Below are positions 27,283-61,338 of a stretch of 64,000 nt of DNA, piece after piece; within the stretch, counting starts at the first letter, position 1, and each line of letters starts with the position of its first letter. The notes beneath the pieces were generated by a model, which worked only from the letters and a program-made list of their open reading frames with translations, did no database searches and was not told where the DNA came from. A program made the position numbers and the translations under genes. Source of the stretch: Exiguobacterium mexicanum (GTDB lineage Bacteria; Bacillota; Bacilli; Exiguobacteriales; Exiguobacteriaceae); assembly GCF_005960665.1 (NCBI RefSeq), contig NZ_CP040676.1:1994501-2058500 (forward strand). The letters run 5' to 3'.

Positions 27283-28656
27283 TCAGTGATCTAATTTCTT
27301 ATTCTGTAACGATTTCGATTGAGGAAAGTGAAAATGTACACGTACTCCGTCTTTTGTATTTCCCAAGGCGACCGTCCCCTCATGGAGTGTCACGATTCGT
27401 TGAACGATGAACAGGCCAAGACCGAACTTCCCTTGTTTCCCTCGCGAAAACTGATGGAACAAGTCGAGGTTCGCGTCGACCGGGGGACCGTCATTCTCAA
27501 TGGTGATGTCGACACCCGCCTCGGAGCGTGTCAGTTCGATTCGAATCGTCGACTCGGCATAGCGCAAGGCATTATCGAGCACGTTCTCGAAGGCGACACG
27601 GATTTGTTCTCCGTCCCCGAGCATCTCGCCGGCATGTCCTGTCACCGACCAGTCCAAGTTGCCGCGCAGTTTGAATCGGCTAACGAGCAGTTCCATCAAC
27701 TTATCGAGATTGATCGGTTCAAGCCGCATCTCCTGGCCCTTAAAGTATTCGAGCTTCGTGACATATAACAAATCGACGACTTTCTTCTCGAGCCGGGACG
27801 CCTCTTCATCGATGACTTCGGCCGACCCTTTCAAATCCCCGGTCGGATAAATCCCGTCCCCGATGGATTGGGCGTAACCGCGAATTACCATAATCGGCGT
27901 CTTCAAGTCGTGCGAGATGTTTTGGAGCAGCGCCTGTTGGGCCACGTCTTGCTCTTGAAACTCTTGCCGCATCGCGTCAATCGAGCGGGCCAACTGCCCG
28001 AGCTCATCTTGACGAGCGAGCGGGAGCACCGTCTCCCATTGTCGGTTCGAGATTTTCTCGACCGCCCGCTCCATCTCGACGATCGGCTTCGTCAACTCTC
28101 GCGACATCCATAAAGCCGGGATTAACGACAACAGGCTGATGACGCCGATTAAAATCGAGATGCGCCAGTAGAGCGTCGAGACAAGTTCACGCCGGTAAGC
28201 GTCCCAGGCGTAGGAAGCTTGGTAAATCAGAGCCCCATCGTACTCGTTCTGGCGGATGATATAGTAGACGTCCTCTCCATCAATCGTCGTCTGGTATTTG
28301 GCGACCTCGCTCGTCTGTGTGAGCGCCTCTTGATACATTCGGTTCGTCAATTCGAGCGGGGCCGAACCATAAATGATGCGTCCGTTCGGCAAAAAGATGA
28401 GCTGGTTGACCGATCGGGATTCTTGTTGGCGACGGTCATACTCAATCGGATTTTGCGGAATGTTTTCTAGCTCATTCGTATTCCCCAGGTAATAATCCAC
28501 ATCTTGCAACGTCTCGTACACTTGTTCATCGATAAACTGCGTGATCGAGGAACGAATCGTCAACAAAATCATCAAGGCGAGCGTCACGATGATCAGAAGG
28601 ATCAATACCCAAATCTTCCACATGAGCCGTTTCGGCTGGAGACGATCGAGCTTCAT
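27283..28656 (-). CDS. cssS: CssS-like secretion-stress sensor kinase
   Basis: A 457-residue membrane kinase with two membrane helices (about 12-33 and 165-187) around a ~130-residue external sensor, then HAMP. HisKA carries LQNISHDLKTPIMVIRGYAQ and the next block DGIYPTGDLKGS, which match B. subtilis CssS closely; the ATPase ends FGLGLFIVQRI. CssS senses misfolded secreted protein and heat, and signals to CssR to induce HtrA-type proteases. Its ATG overlaps the cssR stop as ATGA. The downstream htrA targets are not in this window. Confidence 0.85.
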   Translation of the reverse strand: MKLDRLQPKRLMWKIWVLILLIIVTLALMILLTIRSSITQFIDEQVYETLQDVDYYLGNTNELENIPQNPIEYDRRQQESRSVNQLIFLPNGRIIYGSAPLELTNRMYQEALTQTSEVAKYQTTIDGEDVYYIIRQNEYDGALIYQASYAWDAYRRELVSTLYWRISILIGVISLLSLIPALWMSRELTKPIVEMERAVEKISNRQWETVLPLARQDELGQLARSIDAMRQEFQEQDVAQQALLQNISHDLKTPIMVIRGYAQSIGDGIYPTGDLKGSAEVIDEEASRLEKKVVDLLYVTKLEYFKGQEMRLEPINLDKLMELLVSRFKLRGNLDWSVTGHAGEMLGDGEQIRVAFENVLDNALRYAESTIRIELTRSEAGVDITIENDGPPVDANLDLFHQFSRGKQGKFGLGLFIVQRIVTLHEGTVALGNTKDGVRVHFHFPQSKSLQNKKLDH

Positions 28657-29315
28657 GGCTTAACGAGTCGGTAACCGACGCCATAGAGCGTTTCGAGCTC
28701 AAGGCGATGCAGTTTCTTCCGGAGACGGCGTACCAAGTCATCGACGACGCGGTCCGAGCCGAAATAGTCATGGCCCCATACCCCTTCTAAAATCTGTTCG
28801 CGTGATAAGGCAGAGCCCGGATGTTCGAGGAAGAGCAGCAGCAAGTCGAACTCTTTTGATGTCAAATCGATCTCATCTTGTTCATGCTTGATGAGACGTT
28901 TCTCAGGATAAATCGTATATTCCCCATATTCGATATGCTCATTCGATTTCGAACCGTAGACACGGTCGATCAATTTTTTGACGCGGATGACCAGTTCCCG
29001 TGGCAAGAACGGTTTCGCGATGTAATCGTCCGACCCCATCTCGAGTCCGATAATTTTATCGATATCCTCATCTCGCGCCGAAATGAAAATCGTCGGCGTG
29101 AACGCGTTTTTCGCTTTGATTTCTTTCAGTAATTGGAACCCATCGAGGTCCGGGAGCATGATATCGAGCACCCATAAGTCTGGTTCGTCTTTGATTGCGG
29201 CCTGGGCCGAGGTCCCGTCGGTGAACGAACGGACCTGATACCCTTCTTGCTCTAAATACGTGACGAGCATCTTATTTAAATTGATTTCATCATCGACTAA
29301 ATAGATTGTGTACAT
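28653..29315 (-). CDS. cssR: CssR-like response regulator
   Basis: A 220-residue OmpR-type regulator. The receiver opens MYTIYLVDDEINLN, with the phospho-aspartate in WVLDIMLPDLDG, ISARDEDIDK and SKPFLPRE-like AKPFLPRELVIRVKK. The winged-helix output ends VWGHDYFGSDRVVDDLVRRLRKK. The pattern matches B. subtilis CssR. The ATG at 29315 follows AGAGGTGACTGGA; the GTG three codons upstream is part of the ribosome site. Forms an operon with cssS. Confidence 0.87.
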   Translation of the reverse strand: MYTIYLVDDEINLNKMLVTYLEQEGYQVRSFTDGTSAQAAIKDEPDLWVLDIMLPDLDGFQLLKEIKAKNAFTPTIFISARDEDIDKIIGLEMGSDDYIAKPFLPRELVIRVKKLIDRVYGSKSNEHIEYGEYTIYPEKRLIKHEQDEIDLTSKEFDLLLLFLEHPGSALSREQILEGVWGHDYFGSDRVVDDLVRRLRKKLHRLELETLYGVGYRLVKP

Positions 29316-29430
29316 TCCAGTCACCTCTGCAACGTTTTTTATTTATCATATCAAACAATTGTGGATGAATGATGGGAATGCAGCCGTTTCCTCCGCGCTC
29401 AATGTGTTCACGACACGCAAACAAGCCCAC

Positions 29431-44298: not shown

Positions 44299-45159
44299 TT
44301 ATGCTGATTCAAGGAGATGATTCCTGTACTGTACGGGAGTCATCTTTTTCATGTTCCATTGATAACGATGATGGTTGTAATAGTTAATGGTTTTTCGGAT
44401 TTCACGCTGTAGTGAATCGAACGTGGTACAGGCCTTTAACTCGACGATATCCTTGAAATGTCCAAAGAATGATTCCTGGACAGCGTTATCCCAACAGTTG
44501 CCCCGTCGGGACATGGATTGACCTAGCTTCATACGCTTCACCTCTTTCTGATAGGTCGGGCTCGTGTAGTGCCCTCCTTGATCTGAATGGATGAATGCGT
44601 CCTTGTCCAAGCGAATCCTCCGGTTCTTCCGTAAACGCTTCAACGTATCCAATACAATGTCGAGATTGATGTTCTCAGAGAGTTGATGCGCCAGTACCTC
44701 ATTGGTCGAACCGTCCACGATGGTCGAAAGATAGGCTCGCTTACCGTTCCCGTAAAATATGTAGGTGATATCGGTGAGAAGCACCTTGTAGGGAGTGCCC
44801 TGTTTGAATTCGCGTTTGAGGCGATTCGGCACCACCCGGTGCTCGGCCGTCGCCTTAATGAGCCGTTTGTATGGCTTCGCCTTGCGGATTGGACACACGA
44901 TGTTGTATTTCCGCATGATACGTCGGATACACTTCAGGTTCATCGTCACACCGAAATGACCAGACAGCACCATCTTGATCTGCCTAGCACCCTTCTTGCG
45001 CTTCTTGAAGTGGAACGCCTTCAGAACGAGGTCACGAAGAGCCACGTCTTTCGATTCGCGCTCCTGTCTGGTCTGTCTCCTCCGTTCCGAGAAATAGGCG
45101 TGGTATCCCTGACGTGACACCCCGGCCACCTGGCAGAGATGGCTGACCATCCCCTTCAT
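44299..45159 (-). CDS. IS3-family transposase OrfB (integrase part)
   Basis: 286 residues from the internal ATG, but probably made as an OrfAB fusion by -1 frameshifting, because the frame stays open upstream through the end of orfA. The HTH_21 region (RQGYHAYFSERRRQ) is followed by the rve core: TDITYI for the first aspartate, HSDQGGHYTS for the second, and NCWDNAVQESFFGHFKDI for the glutamate. It ends YNHHRYQWNMKKMTPVQYR, typical of this family. Intact, so the element may be active. Confidence 0.87.
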   Translation of the reverse strand: MKGMVSHLCQVAGVSRQGYHAYFSERRRQTRQERESKDVALRDLVLKAFHFKKRKKGARQIKMVLSGHFGVTMNLKCIRRIMRKYNIVCPIRKAKPYKRLIKATAEHRVVPNRLKREFKQGTPYKVLLTDITYIFYGNGKRAYLSTIVDGSTNEVLAHQLSENINLDIVLDTLKRLRKNRRIRLDKDAFIHSDQGGHYTSPTYQKEVKRMKLGQSMSRRGNCWDNAVQESFFGHFKDIVELKACTTFDSLQREIRKTINYYNHHRYQWNMKKMTPVQYRNHLLESA

Positions 45160-45185
45160 TTTGTGCTTGATGATGACACCTTGAA

Positions 45186-45626
45186 TCAGCTCATACTTTT
45201 GCGATGCGTTAAGTCCAGCTTTCCTCTCCCTTCCGCCAGGCGGATCTCCTTTAATAGTTCGACCTCTGCTTTCAACAGTTTGTTTTCGGCCTCGAGCTTC
45301 GCGTACCGTTCTTCTGTCGACAGCTCTTTATCTCTCCAACGTCCTGAATTACTTGATCGTGTATCGCGCAGCCCCATTACCCCATCTTTTCGGTAAGCTC
45401 GTGTCCAACGATTTTTACAAGAACTCATACGCCGTTCACCGAGTACCTCCACATCGAATCCACATCCCCGGAAGATTTCCACAGGGAACTTTCCTTCCAA
45501 CGTCTGTGCTATAAAAAGTTCCTTAAACTCATCGGTATACGTGATCCCTTTCGGGCTCACAGATTTAACGTAAGGATTTGCGGCTAGCGCATCTATTTCT
45601 TTTGACGTAAATATCTTCTTCGACAC
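45186..45626 (-). CDS. IS3-family transposase OrfA
   Basis: 146 residues with two helix-turn-helix-like segments (TYTDEFKELFIAQTLEG, then RWTRAYRKDGVMGL) and a C-terminal leucine-zipper coiled coil (ERYAKLEAENKLLKAEVELLKEI) used for OrfA/OrfAB multimerisation. The last ~25 codons overlap an open -1 frame leading into orfB. A-AAG heptamer-like sequences there could be the slip site, but I cannot choose one. Starts with ATG 45626 near the right end of the element. Confidence 0.85.
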   Translation of the reverse strand: MSKKIFTSKEIDALAANPYVKSVSPKGITYTDEFKELFIAQTLEGKFPVEIFRGCGFDVEVLGERRMSSCKNRWTRAYRKDGVMGLRDTRSSNSGRWRDKELSTEERYAKLEAENKLLKAEVELLKEIRLAEGRGKLDLTHRKSMS

Positions 45627-45739: not shown

Positions 45740-46789
45740 TCATGTGAGGATGAGATAGAGGGCCTCATCCCGCTCGATGAATCGTTTCTCGCTCTCCAAA
45801 CGCAAAAACGTGAAAATCGACTCGAGCAACGTCCGGTCGTAGCGCCATTCGACACCGAGGTCCGTTTCGACTCGCTCGTTCGGTTCACCTAAAAGCGCAA
45901 TGAGGTCATCCGGCCGCTTCTGTAAATCGATGTCGATGCGTTCGACGCGCCCGTCAACAAACCGTAACTCCATCCCCTCATAGCGCCAAACGTCCCCTCG
46001 CTCCATCGGTTCACCAATCTCATCGAGGACGGTTTGTTCCCGTTTGTTCATCAGCCCTTCGATCGTCTCAATCGAGTGACCTGTCTGAGCTTCGACTTCG
46101 ATTTCAATCAACTCGGCCCGATCAAGATCGAACTGCCCGGCGACGGTCTCAGCTTGTTCCGGCAACAAGGCAAACGCCAAGTCATCGTCTTCTGTCAGCG
46201 TCACGACCTCAGTCTCGGTCACCGTCGACCCATCGATGACAGCGACGGCTTTCACGTCATAACGACCCGGCATACGCTCGAGCTCCACCTCACCGCCCCC
46301 CTCATCAATTCGACCGACTTGTGCACCGTCCACCCACACGTTCGTCAACGGTACGTCCGATGTCACAACGAGCGTCTTCGGCAACAATTCAATCCGATAG
46401 TCCGAGAAACCAAACCGTCCTGCCCCCGTATCGACGAGCCGGAACAACCCATCCGTCTCCATACCTTGCTCCCGGTCGGCGCGGTCCCGCGCTACTTCCG
46501 AGATGGCCTCGCCCCGAATCGTTTTCTCTTCATTCAACCAGCCCATGAAGCGGAGCGCCTCGGCTCGCGTCAGCGGTTCCGATTCATACTCGACGTTCTC
46601 CTGGAAGAAGCTGACGTCCTCGTTCAACAGCGCCTCTTTGAACCGGACATGAGTCTTGTCATTGGCTGCTGCCGGTTGATATCCCCAGCGATAGACGGCC
46701 CCGGCGATCAGCCCGAGCACGATTGTCGCAAGGAGGACATAATAGATTCGCCTCCGCCGTACCGTTTTTTTCGATCGTACATACGCCAT
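45740..46789 (-). CDS. TcaA/YvbJ-like membrane protein without zinc ribbon
   Basis: 349 residues. A basic N-terminus (KKTVRRRRI), one membrane helix (YYVLLATIVLGLIAGAVY), then extracytoplasmic domains: a helical FKEALLNEDVSFFQ block, a beta domain with VPLTNVWVDGAQVGRI and MPGRYDVKAV that resembles TcaA/PEGA repeats, and a C-terminal region ending in a lipoprotein SmpA/OmlA-like LLGEPNERVE. TcaA proteins normally open with a CxxC zinc ribbon, which is missing here. The ATG at 46789 has AGGAAG upstream; the frame extends to 46852. It may act in envelope or glycopeptide stress. Confidence 0.6.
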   Translation of the reverse strand: MAYVRSKKTVRRRRIYYVLLATIVLGLIAGAVYRWGYQPAAANDKTHVRFKEALLNEDVSFFQENVEYESEPLTRAEALRFMGWLNEEKTIRGEAISEVARDRADREQGMETDGLFRLVDTGAGRFGFSDYRIELLPKTLVVTSDVPLTNVWVDGAQVGRIDEGGGEVELERMPGRYDVKAVAVIDGSTVTETEVVTLTEDDDLAFALLPEQAETVAGQFDLDRAELIEIEVEAQTGHSIETIEGLMNKREQTVLDEIGEPMERGDVWRYEGMELRFVDGRVERIDIDLQKRPDDLIALLGEPNERVETDLGVEWRYDRTLLESIFTFLRLESEKRFIERDEALYLILT

Positions 46790-46920
46790 CCGTTTACTTC
46801 CTCTCTTGATTGCTGTTGTTTCTAGTCTAAGACGATTCATCCTCCCGGACAATCATTCTTCCGCCTGAATTTCCATGTTATGATGAAGTGGAATAGTCAT
46901 TTACGAATGGAGGAACCCAC

Positions 46921-47349
46921 ATGCACACTGAAGCCAACTGTATTTTTTGTAAAATCGTCCAGAACGAGATTCCTTCTTATAAGGTATACGAGGACGACGC
47001 CGTCGTCGCGTTCCTCGATATCTCGCAGGTCACGAAAGGCCATACGCTCGTCATCCCAAAACATCACGCCCGAAACATTTATGAACTGCCAGCCGACGTC
47101 GCCCGGGACGTCTTCCAAGCCGTGCCTTCTATCGCAAACGCCATCCAGCGCGAGACGGGTGCGATCGGCATGAACATCCTATCGAACGCCGAAGCAATCG
47201 CCGGACAAACGGTTTACCATTTCCATATGCATCTGTTGCCACGCTATGGCGAGACAGATGGATTTGACGCAAAATGGGAGACGCACCAAGACGATTACTC
47301 CACTGAAGACATGCAAGCCATCGCTGCCGGCATCAAAGCGAAGCTATGA
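46921..47349 (+). CDS. hit: HIT-family nucleotide-binding protein
   Basis: 142 residues with the zinc-like opening ANCIFCKIVQNEIPSYKVYEDD and the histidine triad HFHMHLLPRY. HIT proteins hydrolyse or bind nucleotide phosphoramidates. ATG follows GGAGG (at 46911-46915). In Bacillus the hit gene is beside ecsA; the neighbourhood is conserved here apart from the inserted block. Confidence 0.92.
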   Translation: MHTEANCIFCKIVQNEIPSYKVYEDDAVVAFLDISQVTKGHTLVIPKHHARNIYELPADVARDVFQAVPSIANAIQRETGAIGMNILSNAEAIAGQTVYHFHMHLLPRYGETDGFDAKWETHQDDYSTEDMQAIAAGIKAKL

Positions 47350-47735: not shown

Positions 47736-47903
47736 TGGAGGTCACCTTCCTTTACCCATAGTTTAAAATAAAATGATTTTTCGGTCAAAATTGAATGTTC
47801 TGAAAATTTTTATTTAAGATATAGGTTTTTAATCACTCTTTTTTGGTAAAATAATATGAAAAGAATGTATTGTAGCATCAGTGTGCTTGAGGAGGGGAAT
47901 GTA

Positions 47904-48260
47904 TTGTCGAGTCACAATCGTCGAGAGTGGGTTGCATTTGGCTTCGTCGTAGCGTTTTTAGGGGTTGCGACCGTGAAGAAAATCGCCCGTGGAACGGCAA
48001 ATGACGCCGCGGCCAATCAACACCGGGCGTCCACAATCACTACGTTGAAAGAACAATTCCAAAAAGTTGCCAAGGACGCGTCGCAAGTGGCCGCGGCCGG
48101 TAAATTGCAAGGGAAAGAATTGACGGATCAAGTGAAAGCCGAAGTCGAACGTTATCAACAAGACATTCAGCCTTCAATCGAGCGGATCCAAGGAAACCTA
48201 GACGAGCTTTCGAACGTACAGTCAGACATGACCGAAGCGAAAGCGGAAAAGACCAACTGA
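47904..48260 (+). CDS. yhaH: YhaH/YtxH-like membrane-associated protein
   Basis: 118 residues: one N-terminal hydrophobic segment (EWVAFGFVVAFLGVATV), then a long charged helix with KEQFQKVAKDASQVAAAGKLQGKEL that resembles YtxH-type stress proteins. Start is TTG 47904 behind AGGAGGGG; the frame to 47856 has no ribosome site. In Bacillus yhaH sits by scoC as here. Function unknown. Confidence 0.7.
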   Translation: MSSHNRREWVAFGFVVAFLGVATVKKIARGTANDAAANQHRASTITTLKEQFQKVAKDASQVAAAGKLQGKELTDQVKAEVERYQQDIQPSIERIQGNLDELSNVQSDMTEAKAEKTN

Positions 48261-48320: not shown

Positions 48321-48884
48321 ATGGAACATGAAAAAGAATTCACTGGCCCTGAGGCCATGCTCTATAGTCATAAAATCATTCAACTTAGTAAGGCATTGTG
48401 GAAGACGGTCGAGAAAGACTGGCAGAATTGGATCAAGCCGTTCGATTTGAACATTAACGAACACCATATTTTATGGATCGCTCACGCCCTCGGCGGCGCC
48501 TCGATCTCAGAGATCGCCAAATACGGGGTTATGCACGTATCGACGGCGTTCAACTTCTCGAAGAAACTCGAAGACCGCGGTTTACTCACGTTCTTGAAAA
48601 AGGAGACGGACAAACGAAACACGTACGTCCAATTGACGCCTGAAGGTGAAGCGCTCTTGCTCGAGACGATTCATGCGTTCGATCCGGAAGAGAACGGCGT
48701 CTTCCGCGCCTCCCTCCCGCTCCAAGAATTGTACGGGAAATTCCCGGACTTGACGGACATCACCGCGATCGTTCGCCGCTTGTATGGCGACAACTTCATG
48801 GACATCTTCGCTGAAACGTCGAAGATGATCACAGAAGAAGCCGGACGTCGCCCTGAGGATGACGAGATCAGTAAAGAAGCTTGA
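48321..48884 (+). CDS. scoC: ScoC (Hpr) transition-state regulator
   Basis: 187 residues, MarR family. It has the N-terminal signature [29 protein letters not shown] and the winged helix [31 protein letters not shown], both close to B. subtilis ScoC, which represses exoprotease and sporulation genes. AAAGGATGG precedes ATG. Its last 17 bases overlap the convergent yhaI gene, so the two mRNAs would be antisense at their ends. Confidence 0.92.
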
Positions 48885-49215
48885 CCTGCCGATACAGCGG
48901 TTCCGTGACGTCTAGCGCCATTCCTTGGCGCACGCACGCCTCGAGAATCGTCTCGGCCTCTAAATGAGGATGAAGCATGCCGACGAAATGAACGAGCAAA
49001 GGCTCTACGGACGACAGACCGTAGCGCGCTTGCTCGTTTTGTCGTTCTCGGATATCATCAAGCAGCGCGAAAAACGCGACGACTTCTTGCCGTGTCAGAT
49101 TCGCCTTGAGCACCTCATGTTCAAAGGGCCGCTCCGACCAATCGACCGCCCCGAGCAACAGTTCCATTTGAAACGATAATTGATTGATTTTCTCTTCTAA
49201 CGACACGTTCTCCAC
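48868..49215 (-). CDS. yhaI: YhaI-like protein (DUF1878)
   Basis: 115 residues, helical and acidic: [20 protein letters not shown], then [21 protein letters not shown], then [30 protein letters not shown]. Its pattern and its position between scoC and prsA match B. subtilis YhaI, of unknown function. It overlaps scoC tail-to-tail by 17 bases. Confidence 0.8.
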
Positions 49216-49357
49216 CCCATCATTTCACATTCTCTTTCATCATTATACGACACGTTTCTGTGCTATGATACTACACAGGCAAGAGAACAGCTGTTATCAT
49301 TAACAAAATGTGGTATAGTCGGATTTAGAAACTTATAGATTTTTAGGGGTGGAATAT

Positions 49358-50356
49358 ATGTCAAACGGAATGACGAACGAACCGAACAAACAAAACAAGA
49401 AGTTTTCAACAGGCGCCCTCGTCGGCGCATCAGCGATTGCACTTCTCATCGGTGTCGGCGGCACATATGCGGCGACAAACGGCGGGTCTTCGGACAACTC
49501 AGAAGTTGTTTCCTTTGAAGGCGGCGAAGTGACACGCGGCGAGATCGCGGACATGAGCTACGACCGTATGGTCCCACAACTAGCTTTCCAAGAAACGATG
49601 AACGAGTTGCTTGAAAAAGAATACGGCGACAAAGTCGAACAAGACAAAGTTGACGAAGAGTTCAGCAAGACTGAAGAGCAGTTCAACTCGAAAGAAGAGT
49701 TCGAGCAAGCGATTCAACAAGCCGGTATGACTGACACGGACGAGTTCAAAGAAGCGCTCCGCGGACAAATGCTCGTCGATGCAGCGAAGTCAGAACTCGT
49801 CGAAGTGACGGACGAAGACATCGAGGCACAATTCGCGAAAGAGAACGTCGAAGTCAAAGCGAGCCACATCCTCGTTGAGACAGAAGAAGAAGCCCAAGCG
49901 ATCATCAAAGAATTGAACGATGGCGCCGACTTCGCAGACGTCGCGAAAGAGAAATCGACAGACACAGGTTCTGGTGAAAAAGGTGGCGACCTCGGTTACT
50001 TCTCAGCCGGCGCCATGGTCCCAGAGTTTGAAGAATACGCGTTCCAAGAAGACGTGGTCGGAAAAGTCTCTGAGCCGGTCCAATCACAATTCGGTTTCCA
50101 CGTCATCAAAGTCATGGATCGTAAAGAAAAAGATCTTAAACTCGAAGACGAGAAAGATCGCATCCGTGAAGAATTGGCAACTGAAAAAGCAGCCTCTGTC
50201 GACGCGAACAAGATCTACGCCGAGTTGATCGAGAAATATAACGTCGACGTGAAAGATGCGAAAGCTTCAACACAGTTCGACGCTGTGAAAGACGCCATCA
50301 AAGCGTCAGAAGAAGGTACAGAAGAAGCACCGGCCGAAGAATCGACCGAGCAATAA
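49358..50356 (+). CDS. prsA: PrsA-type foldase, without lipobox
   Basis: A 332-residue peptidyl-prolyl isomerase of the parvulin type that folds secreted proteins outside the membrane. The parvulin core runs from VKASHILVETEEEAQ to FSAGAMVPEFEEYAF and SQFGFHVIKV. There is a single N-terminal helix (GALVGASAIALLIGVGGTYAAT, about 19-40), but the protein contains no cysteine at all, so it cannot be a lipoprotein like B. subtilis PrsA. It is anchored by an uncleaved helix or cleaved after an Ala-rich site. ATG 49358 follows AGGGGTG. The acidic C-terminal tail looks disordered. Confidence 0.88.
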   Translation: MSNGMTNEPNKQNKKFSTGALVGASAIALLIGVGGTYAATNGGSSDNSEVVSFEGGEVTRGEIADMSYDRMVPQLAFQETMNELLEKEYGDKVEQDKVDEEFSKTEEQFNSKEEFEQAIQQAGMTDTDEFKEALRGQMLVDAAKSELVEVTDEDIEAQFAKENVEVKASHILVETEEEAQAIIKELNDGADFADVAKEKSTDTGSGEKGGDLGYFSAGAMVPEFEEYAFQEDVVGKVSEPVQSQFGFHVIKVMDRKEKDLKLEDEKDRIREELATEKAASVDANKIYAELIEKYNVDVKDAKASTQFDAVKDAIKASEEGTEEAPAEESTEQ

Positions 50357-50358
50357 GC

Positions 50359-50386
50359 AAAAGACGTCCCGCGGGACGTCTTTTTT
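50359..50386. terminator. Terminator between prsA and yhaM
   Basis: AAGACGTCCC/GGGACGTCTT stem followed by T6 on the plus strand. Strong for prsA, weaker for the convergent yhaM. Confidence 0.85.
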
Positions 50387-50394
50387 GTATGCCT

Positions 50395-51324
50395 TCATAG
50401 CTTCGGTTTATAAAACGCACGGTTATCGAGTGCCATGACCCGCTCAGTGAACGCTCCGGGTTCGATCCCCTCGAACGCCTTCTCGAACATGTTCATCCGG
50501 GCATCGATATTGTCGATGAAGAACAACATCTCAGCTTCCGGGAGCTGTGGCGCGTTCGCCGATCCCCACTCCGGTTTCCCGTGATGACTGAGGACGAGAT
50601 GTTGGAGCAACGTCACGACTTCGCGGTCGGTCCCGAGTTCTCGGGCCACGACCTCGATTTCAGACGCCATGAGCGACAAGTGGCCGAGCAGTTTCCCTTC
50701 AAGCGTATACTCCGGCGTGATCGCATCCGACAACTCGATCACTTTCGCCAAGTCGTGGAGCACGACACCTGAGACGAGCAAATCACGATTCAATTGCGGG
50801 TACAAGTCACACATCGTTTCAGCGAGTTTCAGCATCGACAAGACATGGAACGCAAGGCCCGAATAGACCGCATGGTGGTGTCGCACCGCAGCCGGATACG
50901 TGAAGTAAGCGCCTTCGTTCCGGTCGACGAGCGCAGTCACGAGCTCACGCATGCCCGCGTGTCCGATCGCATCGATATAGCCGCGAATCCCCGTCTCGAG
51001 TTCTGACTTCGGCACTGGGGCCGAGCGCACGTATGGCGCGATGTCCGTCTCACCTTCGATGATGGAGATTTGTTTCAACTTCAACTGGGTCCGGCCACGG
51101 TAGTCCATCACTTCCCCGGAAGCATGGACAATCTTTTTCGTCGCATATTTTTCCGTATCGGCACTGTCCCATACTTTCGTCTCAATCTCCCCGCTCTCGT
51201 CGCATAGGATGAGCGTCAAATATGGTTTGCCGTTCCCGGCGAGTCCTCGATACGATTGTTTAATCATCACATATTGGTTCAACGTGTCGCCCACTTTGAG
51301 CTGCCCGATTTTAGTAGTCGTCAA
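50395..51324 (-). CDS. yhaM: 3'-5' exoribonuclease YhaM
   Basis: 309 residues: an N-terminal OB-fold (GKPYLTLILCDESGEIETKVWD) and an HD phosphohydrolase domain with RHHHAVYSGLAFHVLSML and HDLAK. Degrades RNA and single-stranded DNA 3'-5'. The start is TTG 51324: GAGGTG precedes it, and the next codons read TTTKIGQLKVGD as in YhaM. An ATG at 51357 belongs to a region with no ribosome site. Neighbour of prsA as in Bacillus. Confidence 0.88.
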   Translation of the reverse strand: MTTTKIGQLKVGDTLNQYVMIKQSYRGLAGNGKPYLTLILCDESGEIETKVWDSADTEKYATKKIVHASGEVMDYRGRTQLKLKQISIIEGETDIAPYVRSAPVPKSELETGIRGYIDAIGHAGMRELVTALVDRNEGAYFTYPAAVRHHHAVYSGLAFHVLSMLKLAETMCDLYPQLNRDLLVSGVVLHDLAKVIELSDAITPEYTLEGKLLGHLSLMASEIEVVARELGTDREVVTLLQHLVLSHHGKPEWGSANAPQLPEAEMLFFIDNIDARMNMFEKAFEGIEPGAFTERVMALDNRAFYKPKL

Positions 51325-51439
51325 AAAAAGCACCTCTCTTCTTGTCAGTACCTTCATCTTAACGAAAGTTCACGTGAGATGCCAACTTTCTTAGGAAAGC
51401 GGGAATACTTGAGGGAGAAGGAGATTGGGGGAATGGAAG

Positions 51440-53800: not shown

Positions 53801-54295
53801 TCATTCGCTATATTTGGCTTCCCACTCGCTGCGCCACTCCATGTAATCGGGATGCAGCTCTTCCGCCGTCTTCCCATCGAGTGAATAGCTCGCTCCGGTA
53901 AGCGGCTCGGCCGAATCCGGATATGACGTCCCGCCGATGATCTCGCCGTCCACCATCATGACCGAGACGTTCGTCTGGCCGAGTTCTGCGACTTCATCGA
54001 GCGGATGGTTGCGGACGATGAAGTTCTCATGTCGAATGTCACGTCCAATATAGTCATCCGGCGGCGTCATCTGGACTTGCCACGTACTTTGCGTTGGCAA
54101 CTCAAGCAGATCTGCATTTTCAAAGCTCGACGTTCTATACCCTTTATAAGAGACGACGTCATAGCCTTGCTCCTCTAAGTACGCCTTGGCCACTTTGGCG
54201 TCCGCCCCGAGCGTCGGTGCCGGCTGTTCGCTCTCATTCGAGCAGGCCGCAAGCAAGAACACAGCCAAAATCATCCCAACGCGTTTCCACATCAT
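53801..54295 (-). CDS. Unrecognised lipoprotein
   Basis: 164 residues with a classical lipoprotein signal: MMWKRVGMILAVFLLAACSN, where the lipobox is LLAAC. The mature part (AKAYLEEQGYDVVSYKGY, then a WQVQMTPPDDYIG region) is not recognised. GAGGTG precedes the double ATG. Located on the outer face of the membrane by inference. Monocistronic, upstream of the hairpin at 53772. Confidence 0.75.
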   Translation of the reverse strand: MMWKRVGMILAVFLLAACSNESEQPAPTLGADAKVAKAYLEEQGYDVVSYKGYRTSSFENADLLELPTQSTWQVQMTPPDDYIGRDIRHENFIVRNHPLDEVAELGQTNVSVMMVDGEIIGGTSYPDSAEPLTGASYSLDGKTAEELHPDYMEWRSEWEAKYSE

Positions 54296-59932: not shown

Positions 59933-60583
59933 TCAGCGAATCGCATACCGACGTTCGAGACGATGCTGCCCCGCCTGGATGAGCGTCGACAAGATCCAAT
60001 AGATCGATGCCGAGAACAAGAGGAGCGGCATGACGAGATACGTCGTCGCGGCAATTTGGTCCGACACGTACGTCAACTCTTGGACGGCGATGACCGAACC
60101 GAGCGACGTCGATTTGATAATATCGATGACCGAGTTGGACACCGGTGGGATCGCACGCGATAGCGCCTGGGGGAAGATGATATCCTTGAAGCGCTTCGCA
60201 CGCGGGATGCCGAGGGCGACACTCGCCTCGACTTGTCCTTGGTCGACCGAATTGATCGCCGCCCGGAACGCTTCCGAGATATAGGCCGCGAAGTGAAGGC
60301 CTAACCCGAAGATGAGCGCCTGCATCCCGCTCAACTGAACGAATCCGGTCAAACCGACGTACAAGATGAGAAGTTGCAACAAGAGCGGTGTGCCCCGGAA
60401 GAACGAGATATACGTGCGCGTGAACAAACGAACGACTTTGACAGGGCTGCTGTGTAAGACAGCGATGATCAGACCGAGCACCAAGGCGAGGAGAATCGAC
60501 AGGATACTGGCGATCAACGTCAATTGTACGGCTTCGATATAGGCCGAACGGTTCTCGATGACGGTCGTGATCAGTTCACTCAT
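59933..60583 (-). CDS. Amino-acid ABC transporter permease
   Basis: 216 residues, His/Glu/Gln/Arg-type (HEQRO) permease: five helices, with YISFFRGTPLLLQLLILYVGL and the EAA loop AYISEAFRAAINSVDQGQVEASVALG. Forms the membrane pore of a polar amino-acid importer. It overlaps the solute-binding gene by 4 bases (ATGA). No ATPase gene is in this operon. Confidence 0.88.
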   Translation of the reverse strand: MSELITTVIENRSAYIEAVQLTLIASILSILLALVLGLIIAVLHSSPVKVVRLFTRTYISFFRGTPLLLQLLILYVGLTGFVQLSGMQALIFGLGLHFAAYISEAFRAAINSVDQGQVEASVALGIPRAKRFKDIIFPQALSRAIPPVSNSVIDIIKSTSLGSVIAVQELTYVSDQIAATTYLVMPLLLFSASIYWILSTLIQAGQHRLERRYAIR

Positions 60584-61338
60584 TGACTGATGTCCTCACC
60601 GAAGTACTTCTCACCGATCTCAGCCATCGTGCCGTCTTCTTGCATTTCAGCGAGCGCCTCGTTCAAGCCTTCGAGCACGTCCGAGTCTTGGCGTGTCATG
60701 AAGCCGGCTTCGCTCTTGTTGAAGACGTCACCTACCGCTTTCACGTCGTAACCTGTCTTCTCTAGCTCCGTCAAGATGAAGAGACGGTCGTTGAGCGCCG
60801 CATCGAGACGTCCGACTTGAAGGTCTTGGAGCACTTGGTTCGCGCCTTTGTAGAACTTCACTTCAGCACCGGCTTCTTCAGCGAGCTTGGCGTAGACCGA
60901 TCCTTGTGTCGAGCCGACGACTTTGCCGTCGAGGTCATCGATGCCTTGAATGTCTTCGTTGTCCGAAGCGACGATGACTTGCGCACCTGATACCGCGTAC
61001 GGAGTTGAGAACGCGTATTTCTCTTCACGTTCTGGGGTGATACTCATTTGGTTGGCAATCATGTCGATGCGTTCCGCGTCGAGTGCTGGAACGAGTCCTT
61101 TGAAGTCCATCGGCTCGTATTCGACCGTGTAACCGGCACGCTCGGCCGCTTCGTTCAATACGTCGATGTCATACCCTGTGATTTCACCTTTGTCTTTGTA
61201 CGTGAATGGCGGGTACGTCGCTTCTGTCCCGACTGTGATGACGGCTTCTTCTGAGCCGCTGTCTGTCTCTGTCCCGCAAGCCGCGAGCACCCCGAACGAT
61301 GCTCCGATTGCAAGTACTGCTGTTAATGATTTTTTCAT
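60580..61338 (-). CDS. Amino-acid ABC transporter substrate-binding lipoprotein
   Basis: 252 residues of family 3 binding protein. The signal and lipobox are ASFGVLAAC (lipidated Cys about residue 21). The mature part begins with a TEATYPPF block and contains VVGSTQGSVYAKLAEEAG and a late YDVKAVGDVFN. Captures a polar amino acid outside the membrane and hands it to the permease, whose gene follows. GGAAATTACC precedes ATG. Confidence 0.88.
   Translation of the reverse strand: MKKSLTAVLAIGASFGVLAACGTETDSGSEEAVITVGTEATYPPFTYKDKGEITGYDIDVLNEAAERAGYTVEYEPMDFKGLVPALDAERIDMIANQMSITPEREEKYAFSTPYAVSGAQVIVASDNEDIQGIDDLDGKVVGSTQGSVYAKLAEEAGAEVKFYKGANQVLQDLQVGRLDAALNDRLFILTELEKTGYDVKAVGDVFNKSEAGFMTRQDSDVLEGLNEALAEMQEDGTMAEIGEKYFGEDISQ

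Follow-up and report, generated by a model that had tools for sequence, protein, structure and literature searches.

PrsA is a foldase that limits protein secretion in Gram-positive bacteria, and it is termed a lipoprotein in the accessible parts of several papers (PMC5020093, PMC12445088, PMC3921577, PMC12826049, PMC3307742). How would such a foldase be held at the membrane if it contained no cysteine? This question is raised by a gene of Exiguobacterium mexicanum at positions 49358-50356 of the window, i.e. the whole stretch of 64,000 nucleotides analysed here. A sequence-only reading of the window had reported a PrsA of 332 residues without any cysteine. It had concluded that lipid anchoring was impossible and that the protein must either be held by its N-terminal helix or be released. 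We compared the window's genus (the aurantiacum/profundum/chiriqhucha group, 19 genomes including the window's own) with its sister genus (19 genomes) and with PrsA-like proteins of other Bacilli.

The prsA gene and its product

The features of prsA and its marker genes are as follows.

46921-47349, plus strand: hit-like (histidine triad) gene, synteny marker (NF045834 HinT, E 2.8e-26, 92 bits, below the cut-off of 130)
48321-48884, plus strand: hpr/scoC regulator gene, synteny marker upstream of prsA (NF010349, 300 bits, above the cut-off of 153)
49345-49352, plus strand: ribosome-binding site AGGGGTGG (read from the sequence)
49358-50356, plus strand: prsA, encoding a foldase of 332 amino acids without any cysteine (translation; Pfam Rotamase_3, E 4e-26)
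49358-49402, plus strand: residues 1-15, polar/basic N-terminal tail MSNGMTNEPNKQNKK, mostly missing in the sister genus (conservation, alignment)
49403-49471, plus strand: residues 16-38, hydrophobic helix rich in Gly and Ala, FSTGALVGASAIALLIGVGGTYA; proposed as a signal anchor, the alternative being a signal peptide with a possible cut after TYA (conservation, hydrophobicity)
49478-49507, plus strand: residues 41-50, variable linker (conservation)
49508-49837, plus strand: residues 51-160, N-terminal part of the composite foldase (NC) domain (phmmer to 6vj4; model helices)
49838-50125, plus strand: residues 161-256, parvulin PPIase domain, containing the stretches KASHILV, GGDLGYF and FGFHVIKV (PF13616/PF00639; fold match to the 6xd8 PPIase fragment)
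50126-50287, plus strand: residues 257-310, C-terminal part of the NC domain (phmmer to 6vj4; model helices)
50288-50353, plus strand: residues 311-332, acidic tail at the C-terminus (invariant at 6 of 22 positions in the window's genus)
50360-50386, plus strand: inverted repeat with a run of T after it, probably a terminator separating prsA from the convergent yhaM (read from the sequence)
50395-51357, minus strand: yhaM exoribonuclease gene, convergent and downstream of prsA, synteny marker (NF010007, E 4.8e-116, 387 bits, below the cut-off of 460)

Judged by its domains, closest relatives, locus and place on the tree described below, the product is a PrsA ortholog. The parvulin PPIase domain matched PF13616 with 92.3 bits (cut-off 22.5) and PF00639 with 80 bits (cut-off 21.7). 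The closest solved relatives were PrsA structures, the best being 6vj4 (phmmer, E 2e-36), and the alignment to it over residues 57-310 contained the composite N/C foldase domain that surrounds the PPIase domain. PrsA structures also ranked first in a Foldseek comparison with the PDB, the TM-scores being moderate (about 0.3-0.6) and the rmsd large. The NCBIfam PrsA equivalog models all scored below their cut-offs (best NF002827, 154.7 bits against 343). The structure model was built from 14 aligned sequences and had a mean pLDDT of 70.6. From about residue 81 to residue 290, every ten-residue block but 201-210 exceeded 70, and the value fell below 50 in residues 1-45, so that the predicted structure is uninformative on the N-terminal helix.

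The translation of 49358-50356 bore out the count of the sequence-only reading: there are zero cysteines in 332 residues. The start codon is an ATG at 49358 with the good ribosome-binding site AGGGGTGG ahead of it. The earliest ATG, GTG or TTG start in the open frame, a GTG at 49349, lies three codons upstream and contributes no cysteine. A search of the three forward frames of 49151-49560 for a lipobox-like motif ([LVIAFMT][ASTVIG][GAS]C) found none. On the encoded protein, Lgt/LspA-type lipid anchoring of PrsA is ruled out, and diacylglyceryl modification is excluded in principle since no cysteine is present. The earlier conclusion that a lipid anchor is impossible therefore holds for this protein, and its two remaining options, anchoring by the helix or release, are supported by the sequence.

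Neighboring genes

The gene order is hit, hpr/scoC, prsA and yhaM, with ecsB and an ABC ATPase gene (ecsA by position) further upstream. The profile matches of hit and yhaM were strong, although below the curated cut-offs. The hit/hpr/prsA/yhaM arrangement is that of the B. subtilis prsA locus and is usual in Bacilli; because of this, the proximity of ecsB, the ABC ATPase gene and hpr is no evidence of a special link. The sequence-only reading had connected PrsA with nearby secretion genes, namely ecsAB, cssRS and scoC. ecsB with the ABC ATPase gene and hpr/scoC are indeed neighbors, but cssRS could not be confirmed. The one two-component pair examined (27283-29324) is some 20 kb distant. Of the models listed for its products (kinase, 16; regulator, 25 of 37), none was named CssRS, and all belonged to other or generic systems.

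Two ORFs at 44299-45626 on the minus strand lie between the ecsA-like gene and the gene at 45740-46852, and resemble an IS3-type transposase pair. The latter gene, also on the minus strand, is an ORF of 370 amino acids with an N-terminal membrane-like segment and an unsure start. Its first 40 residues are highly variable in the window's genus, and a Pfam search with its product gave no match.

Loss of the lipobox in one Exiguobacterium clade

Each of the 19 genomes of the window's genus had a single PrsA match, with a common cysteine-less N-terminus and no cysteine inside the protein (0/19). At five loci (L005, L013, L015, L017 and L018) a cysteine occurred upstream of the start codon in the same open frame, outside the protein. 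In the sister genus, the lipobox LAAC was present in 19/19, with the N-terminus MKKK[LF]L...TLAAC followed by GSNDE, and the lipobox cysteine was the sole cysteine of the protein (n = 19). A cysteine-free mature part is therefore ordinary, and on this comparison it is the loss of the single lipobox residue that is informative. The sequence-only reading had called for a lipobox survey in Exiguobacterium; with 0/19 against 19/19, the survey revealed a clade-wide loss that had gone unnoticed. Such a distribution means that the absence of cysteine is not due to chance, sequencing error or a strain quirk. The 15 Exiguobacterium contigs of another collection were also all cysteine-less (15/15), although they overlap the species of the window's genus and are not independent.

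These data bear on whether an artefact, i.e. a wrong start codon, a frameshift or an assembly error, conceals a lipobox. An upstream start or a sequence correction that restores one was looked for and was absent, both from the three forward frames and from 19/19 genomes, and the called start has a good ribosome-binding site. We rejected a lipobox hidden by an upstream start, another frame or a sequencing error, and consider an artefact extremely improbable.

It was reported, in the accessible part of the source, that RW2 and E. aurantiacum belong to Exiguobacterium clade II and E. sibiricum to clade I (PMC6331483). As far as that source goes, the window's genus corresponds to clade II because two of its members, RW2 (E. 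chiriqhucha) and E. aurantiacum, are placed there, and the sister genus would then be clade I.

A phylogenetic tree was built from 74 sequences, trimmed to exclude the signal region (8 of the 19 from the window's genus, 6 of the 19 from the sister genus and 60 loci from other Bacilli). A quick method was used, with SH-aLRT support only, and the root was not inferred. The eight rows of the window's genus formed one clade (support 100), and these together with the six rows of the sister genus formed another (97). All six nearest outside rows (L160, L175, L188, L192, L195 and L196) had a lipobox. The lipobox trait requires five changes over the tree, with L153, whose state is ambiguous, left out of the count. 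Because the tree is unrooted, a loss in the window's genus rests on these nearest outside rows. By parsimony, the replacement of the lipoprotein signal would date to the ancestor of the window's clade, one of two in Exiguobacterium.

The PrsA proteins of the two genera are orthologs of about 49-53% identity, with an equal ribosome-binding-site context and a sister position on the tree. They differ in that the sister genus has a canonical lipoprotein signal in 19/19 and a Gln/Met-rich C-terminal tail (loci L101-L119), whereas the tail is acidic and contains serine in the window's genus. When the upstream DNA of five loci of the window's genus and four of the sister genus was set side by side, TAGGGGTG stood directly 5′ of the start codon in either genus, which suggests a homologous start site. 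A MAFFT DNA alignment did not place the ribosome-binding sites of the two genera against each other. As TAGGGGTG is kept, the signal-coding part probably changed behind a retained start site.

We also tried to find the residue that replaced the lipobox cysteine. MAFFT aligned TYAAT with TLAAC (Cys to Thr40), and by eye IG[AV]GG could be set against LAACG (Cys to Gly34); neither is secure. Residues 1-56 were searched against the own genome at E up to 10 and matched only prsA itself, a result that does not support copying of the N-terminus from another gene, although sequences this short are hard to find.

Lipidation machinery and other lipoproteins

If the whole clade were losing its lipoproteins, PrsA might be just one of many. 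Matches to the Lgt and LspA families were found in 19/19 genomes of the window's genus. B. subtilis has lgt. As a control in the Lgt search it gave no match, which would make any absence there weak evidence but leaves the reported presences unaffected. In the own genome, YidC and two substrate-binding proteins kept their lipoboxes.

We then compared 184 kb of own DNA with 200 kb of one genome of the sister genus, and obtained 190 pairs of stop-to-stop ORFs that were each other's best match, antisense shadows among them. A lipobox filter gave five pairs, two of which were dropped as shadow ORFs of 61-93 residues. Two of the three real lipobox pairs retain the lipobox in both genera, one being the protein encoded at 60580-61338, and PrsA does not. 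The lipobox of the 60580-61338 protein was present in 17/17 orthologs read. Thus, a general loss of lipidation was rejected on a small sample; the comparison covered only a handful of lipoproteins, which is the one point in favor of such a loss, and we regard it as very improbable. PrsA itself, with 51% identity (median 59%), was the 53rd lowest of the 190 pairs and is therefore not unusually divergent.

Parvulin matches numbered one per genome in 38/38 genomes of the two genera, and a search for a second parvulin in the own genome found none. A lipidated PrsA as a backup is therefore not available, and redundancy through a second, lipidated parvulin was rejected.

Constraint on the new N-terminus

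We estimated pN/pS among the 19 sequences of the window's genus from raw counts of related sequences with no multiple-hit correction. In the tail (residues 1-15), 11/15 positions were invariant and pN/pS was 0.064; in the helix (residues 16-38) the values were 20/23 and 0.079. Residues 1-40 together had 33/40 invariant positions and a pN/pS of 0.071 (bootstrap 0.022-0.127). Comparatively, the linker (residues 41-50) had 4/10 and 0.276, and the folded part (residues 51-310) had 190/260 and 0.084. By these counts the tail and helix are about as constrained as the folded part. Synonymous differences were only slightly fewer in residues 1-40 (pS 0.49 against 0.55), which implies that the constraint acts mainly at the protein level.

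The lipoprotein signal of PrsA in the sister genus had a pN/pS of 0.125 (19 sequences), at the edge of the bootstrap interval. Other lipoprotein signals gave 0.15 for the 60580-61338 protein (17/19; L235 and L237 were dropped because the start motif was not found) and 0.575 for a small lipoprotein at 53801-54295 (12/19 found). For the first 40 residues of neighboring gene products, pN/pS was 0.024 for hpr, 0.149 for hit, 0.201 for yhaM, 0.353 for 47856-48260 and 0.643 for 45740-46852; those of yhaM and 45740-46852 are perhaps inflated because their starts are unsure. The constraint favors a retained N-terminus, but it is no proof, considering the 0.125 of the sister-genus signal and the 0.024 of the cytoplasmic hpr product.

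Signal anchor or signal peptide

The N-terminus of PrsA has KK ahead of the helix, about 20 hydrophobic or small residues, borderline hydrophobicity and a possible cleavage motif. On a crude additive scale (19-residue window, lower values being more hydrophobic), the helix scored 1.8-2.5 in the window's genus, which is borderline and far from the value of a strong anchor like that of L162 (-1.95). The 47 lipoprotein PrsA signals had a median of 5.6 (range -2.0 to 8.9), and the edge of the helix over them is partly inherent in the method, since on short signals a window of 19 residues also covers charged residues. The helix varies at three positions (27, 30 and 33), too few for a helical wheel to be meaningful, and this reading was dropped.

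We propose that the lipoprotein signal of PrsA was swapped for a cysteine-less N-terminus made of a short basic tail and a Gly/Ala-rich helix of 20-23 residues. The helix would serve as a non-cleaved signal anchor with the N-terminus inside, and would hold the foldase at the outer face of the membrane, where a lipidated PrsA would sit. We consider such an uncleaved anchor somewhat more probable than not. With a single parvulin and no lipid, it would be the simplest way to keep the role of PrsA; we infer both that the helix anchors the protein uncleaved and that the foldase role is unchanged.

Alternatively, the same residues might form a long but ordinary Sec signal peptide. Signal peptidase I would cut it behind TYA (residue 38), giving a soluble foldase that is either kept in the wall space by charge or lost to the medium. 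Signal peptidase I requires a small residue at -3 and Ala at -1, and signal peptides often break the helix where Gly-Gly stands here. The helix end, GG-T-Y-A followed by A (T36-Y37-A38 before A39, with Gly34-Gly35 in front), agrees with both, and the borderline hydrophobicity also suits a cleaved signal peptide. To go by the title of one study, lipid modification is reportedly dispensable for growth of B. subtilis. Even lipidated PrsA2 of Listeria is partly released, and disruption of lgt raises PrsA release in three species, according to the part of the source that is accessible (PMC3921577). Against cleavage, the tail and helix are constrained about like the fold, which is above the expectation for a discarded peptide, although the signal of the sister genus is nearly so. 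PrsA is also the sole parvulin. In Listeria, a PrsA2 variant changed at the lipidated cysteine and at basic residues to inhibit membrane localisation had an altered secretome and altered some but not all stress responses, which means, as far as the accessible text goes, that membrane localisation matters for secretion and for some stress responses and not for others (PMC12826049). Cleavage and release thus keep a substantial chance, but one short of even.

In addition to uncleaved anchoring, the helix might pair PrsA subunits within the membrane while the cytoplasmic tail docks to the Sec machinery, which would tie the foldase to the translocon in this clade. PrsA acts as a dimer, according to the accessible part of one paper (PMC12445088). 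Coupling through the tail would be impossible for a lipidated PrsA, which has no cytoplasmic part. We consider this extension unlikely.

PrsA-like proteins of other Bacilli

A protein search covered 299 genomes of the class (27 of the Exiguobacterium family), and 266 of these had a match at E up to 1e-10. Sixty loci were taken from the matches listed, picked for strength and spread and not randomly. Lipoboxes were called by motif and by reading by eye, and contig ends shortened some loci, so that some of their neighbors were perhaps missed. Among these 60 loci, hpr and/or yhaM lay near 37, of which 36 had a lipobox, the exception being L162. Three further loci lay near hit alone and all had a lipobox. 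The remaining 20 lay near none of hit, hpr and yhaM: 8 had a lipobox, 11 had none and L153 was ambiguous.

Thus, 12 of the 60 loci from the matches listed had no lipobox (e.g. L151, L186, L189 and L193), and cysteine-less PrsA-like proteins are not new as such. Like PrsA of the window's genus, these proteins have an N-terminal helix without a lipobox, and several (L151, L186, L189, L193, L197 and others were read) have a similar Gly/Ala pattern, GAxxGA...GGx[WY]; the Gly/Ala-rich helices of several of them scored 0.2-2.6, near the values of the window's genus. They differ in standing on other branches of the tree, and 11 of the 12 have no marker genes nearby. L162 (genome G047), the only one of the 12 near marker genes, is a syntenic cysteine-less PrsA near hit and yhaM, and is apparently an independent switch to a membrane anchor. 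It differs from PrsA of the window's genus in having a long acidic tail and in the far greater hydrophobicity of its helix. The unusual part of the present case is the clade-wide switch in a syntenic and sole PrsA.

The PrsA lipoproteins of Bacillus, Listeria and Staphylococcus (B. subtilis 4wo7; B. anthracis 6vj4) share with the window's protein the NC and parvulin architecture, the fold and an N-terminal export signal. In contrast, PrsA of the window's genus lacks the lipobox cysteine and is extended at the N-terminus by about 12 residues; its helix and linker are longer, and its tail is acidic. YacD of B. subtilis (PDB model 9a7d) is also a parvulin foldase-like protein; it has an N-terminal membrane segment in place of the lipid, and its locus is different from that of prsA. 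YacD, the second parvulin of this species, is named in the accessible part of the source (PMC3307742). YacD differs from our case in being a paralog, which has no counterpart among the parvulins of the own genome. Among open-access papers, we found none whose title or abstract start describes a switch of PrsA from a lipobox to a cysteine-less N-terminus.

Implications

PrsA of the window is a foldase of a known kind with a changed anchor. The change is conserved in the sampled clade, and the mechanism is not exotic. Two sister clades with one parvulin each that differ in the anchor form a natural experiment on whether the lipid itself or nearness to the membrane matters. The N-terminus of the window's genus is a natural non-lipid one that could be tried on PrsA of B. 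subtilis. If our reading is true, inhibition of lgt or LspA would leave PrsA untouched in one Exiguobacterium clade.
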